From: Myxococcales bacterium
GTDB lineage: Bacteria > Myxococcota_A > Bradymonadia > Bradymonadales > Bradymonadaceae
Length of the DNA stretch: 43,783 nt
Direction of reading: 5' to 3'
Assembly: GCA_007119175.1 (NCBI GenBank)
Contig: SKQC01000186.1
Location: 1-43,783, forward strand
The notes under the pieces were generated by a model. That model was not told where the DNA came from. It ran no database searches and worked only from the letters and a program-made list of their open reading frames with translations. Made by a program: the position numbers and the translations under genes. This document shows positions 16,902 through 20,757 of the stretch, piece by piece; within the stretch, counting starts at the first letter, position 1; the number at the start of each line of letters is the position of its first letter.

Positions 16902-18164
16902 ATGAGTAGTGACATCCTTTCTAATCTATCCCGACAATCGCGGCGCGAGCCCCAACCCGTCGTCGACGGCGATGGTCCCCAATGGGACCTGGGCCTGCTC
17001 GTCGCTGTCTTTATGTTGCTGGGCTTCGGCGTCGTAATGCTCTACTCGGCGAGTAGCGTGATGGCCGAGATGCGCATGGGTGACCACTATCGATTATTAG
17101 CCGGGCAGACCGAAAATATCATTATCGGCACCTTTGCCTGTCTGGTCGCTCTGCAGATCGACTATCGGTGGTATCGGCGGCTCGTCTATCCAATTCTCGG
17201 GACGACGACCCTGGTTTTGGTCCTCGTTGCGATCCCCGAAATCGGCACCATGGAACACGGCGCCCGTCGCTGGTTGTCACTGGGGCCGGTCGGCTTTCAG
17301 CCGGCAGAGCTGGCGAAACTAACGGCGGTCATCTTTCTGGCGTACTCCATCAGCAAGAAGGGAAAGCGGATGGGCAGTTTTACCATCGGTTTTCTACCTC
17401 ATCTTTTCATCATCGGCGCTCTGGTCGCGTTGTTGATGCTGCAGCCCGATTTTGGAACGGCAGTCATGTTGATCAGCCTGATGATGATCCTCCTCTTCGT
17501 CAGCGGAGCAAAACTGTCCTATCTATTTTTGGTCAGTGCCGCCGGATCGGTGGTGGCCTATTTCGCGGTTAGCGGCAGTGAGTACCGAATGCAGCGCATT
17601 CTTGCGTTTCTCGATCCCTGGAGTCACCGCCAGGATATCGGCTATCAGATCAGCGAATCTCTCATCGCCATCGGATCGGCCGGGCTCGGCGGACGGGGGC
17701 TGGGTGAGGGGGCCGGAAAGCTGGGCTATGTTCCGGAGCTGTGGAATGATTTTATCGGCACGATTATCGCCGAGGAGCTGGGCATCGCCGGCATTATCGC
17801 CGTCGTCGCTCTATTCGCCTTTGTGTTGTGGCGCGGCTATCGGATCGCCTTTCGTTCCATCGATGCCTTCGGGATGTACCTGGCCTTCGGGATCACCTCG
17901 CTGATCGCCTTGCAGGCTATGGCCAACCTCTTCGTTGTGACGGGGATGTTGCCCACCAAAGGGCTGACCTTGCCCTTCGTATCCTTTGGAGGTACGTCCA
18001 TCATCGTCGGACTCTTCTCCATCGGTATTCTGCTCAATATCTCGCGCAACGAACCGGATTGGTGGGAAAAACGCCGAGAGGAGCGCGAGGCGGTGCGTGA
18101 AAAACAGCGCTGGGAGAAGAAACGACAAAAGATCCTAAAGCGCCGCGATGATCTGTCTGCCTGA
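16902..18164 (+). CDS. ftsW: Lipid II polymerase / division SEDS protein FtsW
   Basis: A 420-residue SEDS-family protein with about ten membrane helices. FtsW is the septal glycosyltransferase that works with FtsI. Visible motifs are VVMLYSASSVMAEM in helix 1, GARRWLSLGPVGFQPAELAK (the SEDS substrate loop), MLQPDFGTAVML, GLGEGAGKLGYVPELWNDFI with the catalytic-loop Asp, IAEELGIAGII and LPFVSFGGTSII near the end. The tail is a charged coil (REEREAVREKQRWEKKRQK), probably cytoplasmic. The start is ATG 16902 because AAGGAGG lies four bases upstream. The next gene, murG, begins 13 bases after the stop. Confidence 0.96.
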   Translation: MSSDILSNLSRQSRREPQPVVDGDGPQWDLGLLVAVFMLLGFGVVMLYSASSVMAEMRMGDHYRLLAGQTENIIIGTFACLVALQIDYRWYRRLVYPILGTTTLVLVLVAIPEIGTMEHGARRWLSLGPVGFQPAELAKLTAVIFLAYSISKKGKRMGSFTIGFLPHLFIIGALVALLMLQPDFGTAVMLISLMMILLFVSGAKLSYLFLVSAAGSVVAYFAVSGSEYRMQRILAFLDPWSHRQDIGYQISESLIAIGSAGLGGRGLGEGAGKLGYVPELWNDFIGTIIAEELGIAGIIAVVALFAFVLWRGYRIAFRSIDAFGMYLAFGITSLIALQAMANLFVVTGMLPTKGLTLPFVSFGGTSIIVGLFSIGILLNISRNEPDWWEKRREEREAVREKQRWEKKRQKILKRRDDLSA

Positions 18165-18177
18165 GAGGCGAACGAAG

Positions 18178-19290
18178 ATGTCTGCATCAAAGTCGAGACC
18201 GCACCTTGTTCTGGCCGGTGGAAAAACGGGAGGTCATCTCTTTCCCGGCGTCGCTGTAGCCGATGAATTTACGCGGCTTCGCCCCGATGCCAGAGTCACT
18301 TTCGTGGGTACCGAGGAGGGAATTGAGGCGCGGGTAATTCCCGATTCCCCCTATGAATTGGAGCTGGTCGACGTCAGCCCCTTAAAGGGCGGAAGTCTGA
18401 TAAATCGCGCCAGCAGTCTTGCGAGTCTACCCGGCAGCGGCCTGAAGGCCCGGCGGCTACTGCGTCGACTGGAGCCGGATATCGTGGTCAGCCTGGGCGG
18501 ATACGCCGCCGGACCGGTCACATTGGTGGCTGCGCTGGCAAAGATTCCCACGGCTTTAATGGAACAAAACTCCTATCCCGGTCTGACCAATCGCCTGCTC
18601 AGTCGCTTCGTCGATCACGCCTTTTTGACCTTTGATGAGACCGCCGACCATCTGGGCGACGTCCCCACCTCGACGCCGGGGAATCCGGTGCGACGCTCCC
18701 TGTTGGAAATGGCCGATTCCTTTCAATACGAAGCTCCTGAGGCCGGTGCTCCGTTTCATATTTTGATCATCGGTGGAAGCGGAGGAGCCGGCAGCTTCAA
18801 TCGTCATATTCCATCCTGGCTGTCGTCGATGGGCGAGCTCGCCGCGCGGCTGCATGTGCGCCACCAGGCGGGCAACGGCCGCGCCGACGAGGTGCTCCCG
18901 GGATATGCTGACTTTTCCGGTCAGGCCGACGTCATCGAATTTATCGACGACATGGCCGCGGCGTATCGCTGGTGCGATCTATTGATCTGTCGGGCCGGGG
19001 CGTCGACGATTGCCGAGGTCCTCAACCTCGGCATTCCCGCCATCTACGTTCCCTTCCCGCACGCCGCCGACGACCACCAGCGAACGAATGCTCGCTCCGT
19101 TGTCGAGGCTGGCGCCGGTGTCATGATCGACGATTCCGAATTGGATTCCGACCGCTCCCGAAACCTCCTTACCGGCTTTATGAACAACCCGGTGGCGCTG
19201 GAGAATCTGGCTTCCCGCGCCAGAGAATTGGGCAGACCCGAGGCGGGCATCGAGATTGCCGAATCGCTTCTGGAACTCTGCGGCGCCTGA
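18178..19290 (+). CDS. murG: UDP-GlcNAc:lipid I transferase MurG
   Basis: A 370-residue GT28 glycosyltransferase of the inner membrane face that converts lipid I to lipid II. It shows the first Gly-rich loop LAGGKTGGHLFPGVAVADEF, VSLGGYAAGPVTLVAALAKI, LMEQNSYPGLTNRLLSRF, GNPVRRSL, the second Gly-rich loop IIGGSGGAGSFN, and the UDP-GlcNAc site CRAGASTIAEVLNLGIPAIY followed by VPFPHAADDHQRTNA. Start ATG 18178 has GAGAGG nine bases upstream. The usual next gene, murC, is absent; instead about 430 non-coding bases follow. Confidence 0.97.
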   Translation: MSASKSRPHLVLAGGKTGGHLFPGVAVADEFTRLRPDARVTFVGTEEGIEARVIPDSPYELELVDVSPLKGGSLINRASSLASLPGSGLKARRLLRRLEPDIVVSLGGYAAGPVTLVAALAKIPTALMEQNSYPGLTNRLLSRFVDHAFLTFDETADHLGDVPTSTPGNPVRRSLLEMADSFQYEAPEAGAPFHILIIGGSGGAGSFNRHIPSWLSSMGELAARLHVRHQAGNGRADEVLPGYADFSGQADVIEFIDDMAAAYRWCDLLICRAGASTIAEVLNLGIPAIYVPFPHAADDHQRTNARSVVEAGAGVMIDDSELDSDRSRNLLTGFMNNPVALENLASRARELGRPEAGIEIAESLLELCGA

Positions 19291-19326: not shown

Positions 19327-19436
19327 GTAGCAGGTCAGTCCCCGGGGCCTGCGGCCAGCCTGGCCGCAACCCAAACACTTATACAATTCTTTGTAAGCGT
19401 TCAGCCCCCCGGGGTCCGCGGCCAGCCTGGCCGCAT
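19327..19436 (+). repeat. Two diverged copies of a GC-rich palindromic unit
   Basis: The stretch from 19327 is repeated from 19393, 66-67 bases further on. Both share CCCCGGGG and a perfect 17-base palindrome, GCGGCCAGCCTGGCCGC (19351-19367 and 19418-19434). The second copy is the left part of the miniature element at 19393-19505. The first lies outside it and begins with GTAGCAGGTCAG, a decayed form of the element end, so it is probably an older broken copy. Confidence 0.7.
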
Positions 19437-19513
19437 CTCGGGCCGTCAGCCCGCCCCTTTCAGGGCGCTTTGGCGCATGACTTCGTCACCCCACTGAACG
19501 CTTACAATTCTTT
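19385..19513. repeat. Target-site duplication AATTCTTT flanking the miniature element
   Basis: Identical octamers at 19385-19392 and 19506-19513 touch the outer ends of the inverted repeats with no gap. The lack of any mismatch suggests a fairly recent insertion. Confidence 0.78.
19393..19505. mobile_element. 113-bp IS66-like miniature element (MITE) with 8-bp target duplication
   Basis: Perfect 12-base terminal inverted repeats, GTAAGCGTTCAG at 19393-19404 and CTGAACGCTTAC at 19494-19505, bound a non-coding GC-rich core. The element is flanked directly on both sides by the same eight bases, AATTCTTT (19385-19392 and 19506-19513), the signature of a transposition event. Ends beginning GTAA with an 8-bp duplication are features of the IS66 family, so the element was probably mobilised by an IS66-type transposase encoded elsewhere. 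No transposase frame is present. It sits in the murG-murB gap, where murC is normally found. Confidence 0.82.
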
Positions 19514-19669: not shown

Positions 19670-19697
19670 TTGCAGGGCCACCGTCATGATGTATTCT
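19670..19697 (+). promoter_or_regulatory. murB: Candidate promoter before murB
   Basis: TTGCAG (19670-19675), a 16-base spacer and TATTCT (19692-19697) lie just before murB. A nearby TTGACA (19633-19638) and TATAGT (19649-19654) are only ten bases apart, too close to act as one promoter. The region is AT-rich relative to its surroundings, and a restart of transcription after the inserted element is plausible. Confidence 0.3.
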
Positions 19698-19719
19698 GAA
19701 GTTGTGATCCGGAGATATG

Positions 19720-20757
19720 ATGCCAGTTTCATGGAGCGAAAGACGAGTCGATTGGACGTCATCGTCGAATCTAGATGAACGTCTCAACCGCTGGAGCGAA
19801 TGCGCCTCTGAACAGAGTCAATTGCTTCGAGACGAGTCACTGACTCGCCGTTCATCACTTCGAATCGGCGGGTCGGCGAAATACTGGATTGAAGTTGGTG
19901 CGATCGACGATCTTAGCTCGCTTCTGGCCTGTCTTTCGGACTCCGATTTTGTCTGTGTCGGACTGGGAAGTAATTCGTTATTTCCCGACGATGGAATCGA
20001 CGTTCCCGTGATTCGACTGGTCGGCGAACTCGCCGAGTGGAATGTGAGATCCGACTGTGACGGTGATGCGGCGAAAGTCGAGGTGATGGCTGGTGTGATC
20101 AACGCCCATTTAGTTCGCGGGCTACTGGCCGATGGATGGGTTGGCGCGGAGTTTTTGACGCTGATCCCGGGAACTTTCGGTGGTGCTGTGGCGCTCAATG
20201 CGGGCACCAGAGAAAAAGAATTAAAGGCAGTCCTCGAAAGCGTCTGGATTGCCGCACGCGACGACGAGCAATGCTGCTGGCATCTGGAACATCGCAGCGT
20301 TCGCGATCTGGAGATGAGTTATCGCCACACCAGAATAGGCGACACGACAGTGGTCGTCGCCGGACGCCTGGCCGTCGAACAGGGCGACGTAGAGGCCGCC
20401 CAAAAGCGGGTGATGGCCGACAAGGAGCGACGCAACCGCACTCAGCCCTATAGATTGGCCAGTGTGGGCAGCACATTTGCCAATCCGGACGGCGACTATG
20501 CCGGTCGCCTCATAGAAGAGGCGGGCCTCAAGGGTGAGGCCATCGGCGGTGCAAAGATTAGTTCGTTGCACGCGAATTTTTTCATCAACGACGACGATGC
20601 CAGTGCCGAGGACTTTTTGAAGTTGATGGCTCTGGCGCGACACCGAGTGCGACATAAATTCGATATAGAGTTGAGACCAGAAGTTAAATTCGTCGGTTTT
20701 GACGGCCGAGCAAGGATGCTCGAGCTGGAACGAGAGCTGGAAGACAGGGATGTTTGA
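19720..20757 (+). CDS. murB: UDP-N-acetylenolpyruvoylglucosamine reductase MurB
   Basis: A 345-residue FAD- and NADPH-dependent enzyme that makes UDP-MurNAc. The FAD domain has SSLRIGGSAKYWIEVG, VGLGSNSLFPDDGIDVPVIR and LIPGTFGGAVALNAG. The substrate domain has YRHTRIGDTTVVVAG, then VGSTFANPDGDYAGRLIEEA with the catalytic Ser, GLKGEAIGGAKISSLHANFF and RHKFDIELRPEVKFVG with the final Glu. This arrangement fits type II MurB, which lacks the extra loop of the E. coli enzyme. The ATG at 19720 has GGAG five bases upstream; an ATG three bases earlier is in frame. The last eight bases overlap the ddl start. Confidence 0.95.
   Translation: MPVSWSERRVDWTSSSNLDERLNRWSECASEQSQLLRDESLTRRSSLRIGGSAKYWIEVGAIDDLSSLLACLSDSDFVCVGLGSNSLFPDDGIDVPVIRLVGELAEWNVRSDCDGDAAKVEVMAGVINAHLVRGLLADGWVGAEFLTLIPGTFGGAVALNAGTREKELKAVLESVWIAARDDEQCCWHLEHRSVRDLEMSYRHTRIGDTTVVVAGRLAVEQGDVEAAQKRVMADKERRNRTQPYRLASVGSTFANPDGDYAGRLIEEAGLKGEAIGGAKISSLHANFFINDDDASAEDFLKLMALARHRVRHKFDIELRPEVKFVGFDGRARMLELERELEDRDV

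Follow-up and report, generated by a model that had tools for sequence, protein, structure and literature searches.

The gap between murG and murB in the stretch of DNA analyzed here (the window, 43,783 nucleotides from a Myxococcales bacterium) holds a short sequence bounded by inverted repeats, which raises the questions of what this element is, what could have moved it there and whether it affects the genes downstream. The gap measures 426 bp, from the murG stop at 19290 to the murB start at 19717. Direct reading of the window gives the order ...TATACAATTCTTT / GTAAGCGTTCAG...CTGAACGCTTAC / AATTCTTTATCC..., with the following features.

18148..19290, + strand: murG, whose orthologues adjoin murB in relatives
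19340..19368, + strand: solitary left-hairpin module, 93% to 19407-19435, without a recognisable 12-bp end
19385..19392, no strand: left target-site duplication AATTCTTT, by direct reading, with a 7/8 near-match once in the empty gaps of G001 and G003
19393..19404, + strand: left terminal inverted repeat GTAAGCGTTCAG, the same as IS66 element ends in G011 and G023
19407..19453, + strand: double-hairpin core CCCCGGGGTCC + GCGGCCAGCCTGGCCGC + ATCT + CGGGCCGTCAGCCCG, from repeat search, folding and genome counts
19478..19505, - strand: right end GTAAGCGTTCAGTGGGGTGACGAAGTCA, its outer 16 nt the same as the G011 IS66 end
19494-19505: right terminal inverted repeat CTGAACGCTTAC, by direct reading and repeat search
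19506..19513, no strand: right target-site duplication AATTCTTT, by direct reading
19670..19697, + strand: putative promoter-like TTGCAG-N16-TATTCT, conserved in relatives' alignments
19717..20757, + strand: murB, by gene call

The original prediction placed perfect 12-bp inverted repeats, touched on both sides by identical octamers, in the murG-murB gap, and all three statements are borne out. Direct reading and a repeat search agree that the 12-bp arms are fully complementary (100%; the inverted pair reaches 14 bp if chance flank letters are counted) and that AATTCTTT flanks them on both sides as 8-bp direct repeats. The 113 bp attributed to a non-coding core is the right figure, but for the entire element with its ends (19393-19505); the sequence between the ends is 89 bp. 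The element is short and non-coding, with no gene of its own.

BLAST against the window's own genome (a draft of 5.37 Mb in 494 contigs, 86% complete) returned 61 matches to the element, of which about 40 span the greater part of it at 82-98% identity. The exact 12-bp GTAAGCGTTCAG occurs at 78 places and the right end with at most three mismatches at 87, the reversed control of each giving 0. The genome-wide search for further copies that had been proposed as a check thus found them, with about 40 good copies and 87 recognisable right ends. A chance origin of the repeats and ends is excluded, because the element is multicopy, exact ends number 78 versus 0, and 8-bp duplications recur at independent sites. 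Of the 39 near-full copies that were aligned, three equal the family consensus and about a dozen differ from it by no more than 3%; the identity of the window copy is 97.3%, and an older, diverged layer lies at 80-91%. Since three copies match the consensus exactly and others fall within 0-3%, the family appears to have spread recently. In 57 genomes of the class, the window's species alone has the exact right end; diverged versions of the element are present in three congeners. Plasmid BLAST gave only weak GC-rich matches to the element, and neither GTDB contigs nor viral contigs, scanned for the exact patterns in collections from which close records of this genome may be missing, gave a match. 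In a rough open-frame test, 60% of 30 insertion sites lay over a frame of at least 150 codons, versus 86% of nearby random points, a difference given little weight as evidence of intergenic preference because at this GC content chance alone makes stop-to-stop frames long. At locus L053 (1492-1701; G004:C294), two 93-bp MITEs stand in direct tandem, with GACGAATA between and after them and GACCAATA before, which points to an existing duplication as the site of insertion or of recombination.

Of 55 end pairings, a set in which expanded copies contribute some nested alternatives, 35 have flanking octamers that agree at 7-8 of 8 positions, 26 of these perfectly; mismatched or shuffled flank pairs reach 7-8/8 in 0.35% of cases. 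The octamers differ between copies and are identical within each (TCTCAAAT, TGGACCGA, ATATAGCT, GTCAAGAT, TCTCGATA, AACTCAAT, CTTCTTTT and others). Internally expanded copies carry a single outer duplication, such as TTTTTATA on either side of a copy of 167 bp and ACGGCAAA on either side of one of 236 bp; thus, either the whole expanded unit moved or the expansion came after insertion.

Relatives provide the corresponding empty site, for which a comparison with close relatives had been suggested. In congeners, murG and murB are about 220-290 bp apart, with no copy of the element between them; it is missing from G001, G002, G003 and one more MAG, L218 (L219 and L220 are the same genomes as G002 and G003). 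The octamer is kept once, at 7/8, in the gaps of G001 (TATTCTTT) and G003 (AATTCTTA): at the place of ACAATTCTTT[element]AATTCTTTATCC in the window, G001 reads GCTATTCTTTAAG and G003 GGCAATTCTTAATG. The octamer alignment is weaker in the G002 and L218 gaps. Status as a MITE is supported by the many copies, the precise 8-bp duplications and the empty sites in relatives.

No IS66 transposase (PF03050, PF20042 or a G011-like protein) was found in the window's genome, an 86%-complete draft, and no pair 1-3 kb apart, the mark of an IS66 element, was seen among the 78 exact ends. The exact ends checked by sequence belong to MITE copies or fragments, with the exceptions of C411 (at a contig end) and C407 (partial family likeness). 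Because the draft is incomplete and divided into 494 contigs, a multicopy 1.5-kb insertion sequence could have been lost in assembly. The IS66 link of the element rests on relatives. Of 58 related genomes, 25 have PF03050, and for several of the elements the ends could be read. The closed genome G011, from the same family, has four copies of a single-ORF IS66 element: L102 (2197-3755) has the target-site duplication ttttgggt, the right end GTAAGCGTTCAGTGGG and a left end with two mismatches; GTAAGCGTTCAG stands unaltered at the left end of L103 and of L105 and at both ends of L104. The 8-bp flanks of L104 (ccccgcat/gctagaat) and L105 (aactctaa/aacgcgca) do not match, which suggests recombination between IS66 copies or decay. 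In G023, from the same order, the element L107 has GTAAGCGTTCAG at one end and the duplication ctctaatc; in G049, from the same class, L089 has GTAAGCGTTCAC, an 11/12 match to GTAAGCGTTCAG, and the duplication ctgggtgc. The IS66 proteins of these relatives are encoded by one ORF (467-494 aa, with PF03050, DUF6444 and an IS66 zinc-finger domain), an arrangement that matches descriptions of the single-ORF ISBst12 group.

The literature agrees with these ends: published IS66 ends begin GTAAGCG (GTAAGCGTCCGG...) (PMC12888890), IS66 elements make 8-bp repeats (PMC3281130), and ISDge4 of the ISBst12 group has GTRACT ends and an 8-bp repeat (PMC12898284). Together with the same ends and 8-bp duplications in relatives, this indicates a MITE that uses IS66-type ends. 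On sequence comparison, the assignment of these ends to IS66 appears strong, since same-ended single-ORF IS66 elements with 8-bp duplications occur in the same family and order. Thus, the IS66 attribution in the original prediction stands as far as ends and duplications are concerned, but the 86%-complete draft itself yielded no transposase, which is part of what the prediction had named as refuting it. The murG-murB element encodes no TnpC/PF03050 transposase and has no gene inside, and so is an IS66-related MITE and not an IS66 insertion sequence. Over 16 nt the right end of the MITE equals the G011 IS66 end; further in than the outer 12-16 bp, no evident sequence common to the MITE and the IS66 elements was found, so origin of the MITE by internal deletion of those IS66 elements has no support.

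The best explanation, to which we give a probability of about 0.88, is a non-autonomous MITE moved in trans by a single-ORF (ISBst12-type) IS66-family transposase. Such a transposase would recognise the GTAAGCGTTCAG ends and make an 8-bp staggered cut at the target, and insertion would duplicate AATTCTTT on both sides. Its source would be absent from, or unassembled in, this genome. The murG-murB MITE belongs to a familiar kind of element, of which it is a clean case; the family itself is new.

The less ordinary part of the element is its core, a double hairpin that is often amplified in tandem. Its two hairpins are GCGGCCAGCCTGGCCGC and CGGGCCGTCAGCCCG, and the + strand of the element folds strongly (-59.3 kcal/mol, z -5.2), as it should because inverted repeats must fold. 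The left hairpin with its CCCCGGGG prefix occurs at 188 places in the genome and the doublet at 135, both more than the intact MITEs. Most sampled hairpin places are decayed or internally expanded MITEs with tandem units of 36-80 bp, and some are arrays without recognisable ends. In G003 and G004, some copies of the doublet GGAGC-GCGGCCAGCCTGGCCGC-NNNN-CGGRCTGGCAGYCCG-CGCTCC are enclosed by GTAAGCG ends and others lack them. The original description of a textbook element thus fits the ends but not the core with its hairpin module. A search with the 47-bp hairpin module of the sister species gave no plasmid match by BLAST, and a literature search for the hairpin sequence returned nothing relevant.

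The strong fold might be taken to indicate a functional spacer element (a regulatory RNA, terminator or attenuator) conserved between murG and murB. The same gap in relatives lacks it, dozens of copies lie elsewhere with new duplications, the element has no Rfam match, a promoter and terminator scan found no terminator-like site formed by it, and the fold itself is expected from inverted repeats; this explanation is highly improbable. As an origin of the 113 bp, a conserved functional element is refuted by the empty gaps of relatives and the dispersed copies. A MITE of another transposase family, with GTAAG-like ends by coincidence, would account for the lack of a detected IS66 gene in this genome, and 8-bp duplications are made by several IS families besides IS66. 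However, the full 12-bp end, extending to 16 bp on one side, is that of IS66 elements in the same family and order that also make 8-bp duplications, and a coincidental likeness is improbable.

The double hairpin, its tandem arrays and the G003/G004 copies without IS66 ends recall an extragenic palindrome of the REP/REPIN kind, elements associated with RAYT (Y1) transposases, which would then have moved it. In the window copy, however, the DDE-type ends are complete and there is a target duplication, and to our knowledge REP elements make none, so that movement of the element by a RAYT has a negligible probability. A REP-like origin of the core alone is possible. A tentative and rather unlikely version is that an independently spreading REP-like double hairpin (GGAGC-hairpin-hairpin-GCTCC in the sister species) became enclosed by IS66 ends and amplifies in tandem inside them, with a spread route of its own in addition to the IS66 transposase.

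A further question is whether the IS66-linked MITE affects murB. The original prediction held that it interrupts an essential-gene cluster and may alter transcription of murB, ddl, ftsQ, ftsA and ftsZ. Interruption is an overstatement, as relatives have a spacer of 220-290 bp and a promoter-like site lies downstream of the insertion. Gap alignments show that this TTGCAG-N16-TATTCT, about 20 bp ahead of the murB start, is kept in relatives; it is absent from the list of a stricter sigma-70 promoter scan. An effect on transcription is not supported by the sequence, because the conserved promoter-like site lies between the element and murB and no terminator-like site was found. The element is most likely a tolerated insertion in the spacer, upstream of a separate putative murB promoter, and is probably harmless where it sits. 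The murG-murB spacer thus tolerates insertions, and the element leaves our view of the division and cell-wall gene cluster as it was.

Compared with the ISBst12 group of the IS66 family (for example, ISDge4, PMC12898284), the MITE is alike in its GTAA-type ends and 8-bp target duplication but lacks a transposase gene and shares only the outer 12-16 bp. It resembles other bacterial MITEs (MITEPsy1, 100 bp, PMC3189936; MITEAba12, PMC6382973) in its length of about 100 bp, inverted ends, duplications, multiple copies and absence of an ORF, whereas its ends and transposase family are different; MITEPsy1 has been tied to IS5 (with a question mark) and MITEPsy2 to Tn3 (PMC3189936). IS66 has 0 occurrences in a 2024 review of prokaryotic MITEs (PMC10969869). 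The BrickBuilt MITE of Porphyromonas gingivalis contains internal tandem repeats (PMC4596501) and is a precedent for a minisatellite inside a bacterial MITE, although here the repeat is a GC hairpin of 36-80 bp, expansion is limited to some of the copies and the ends are different. With REP/REPIN elements the family shares a GC-rich hairpin doublet in many copies; the DDE-type ends of the window copy and its 8-bp duplication set it apart from them. The relatives of the window's MurG that carry names are Myxococcales MAGs, with isolate names of the CSSed type; such names are tied to studies of Siberian soda-lake sediment. The element represents a probably recently active IS66-linked MITE family of 40-90 copies, with clean insertion footprints, in an uncultured and apparently soda-lake myxococcal lineage. 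For the ISBst12 group, which has been little studied, the family supplies ends and target sites that can be put to use.

At L068, L124, L127, L128, L133, L137 and L140 of G003/G004, the GGAGC...GCTCC doublet stands without IS66 ends or obvious target duplication. Tandem arrays of GC hairpins with units of about 38-80 bp occur at L120 (18-257; G000:C144), L170 and L173 (read on the minus strand) and L209. Several such arrays lie at contig ends, and GC-hairpin repeats probably break the assembly. In the window, the solitary hairpin at 19340-19368 sits 16 bp upstream of the left duplication and is probably a decayed remnant of an older copy.
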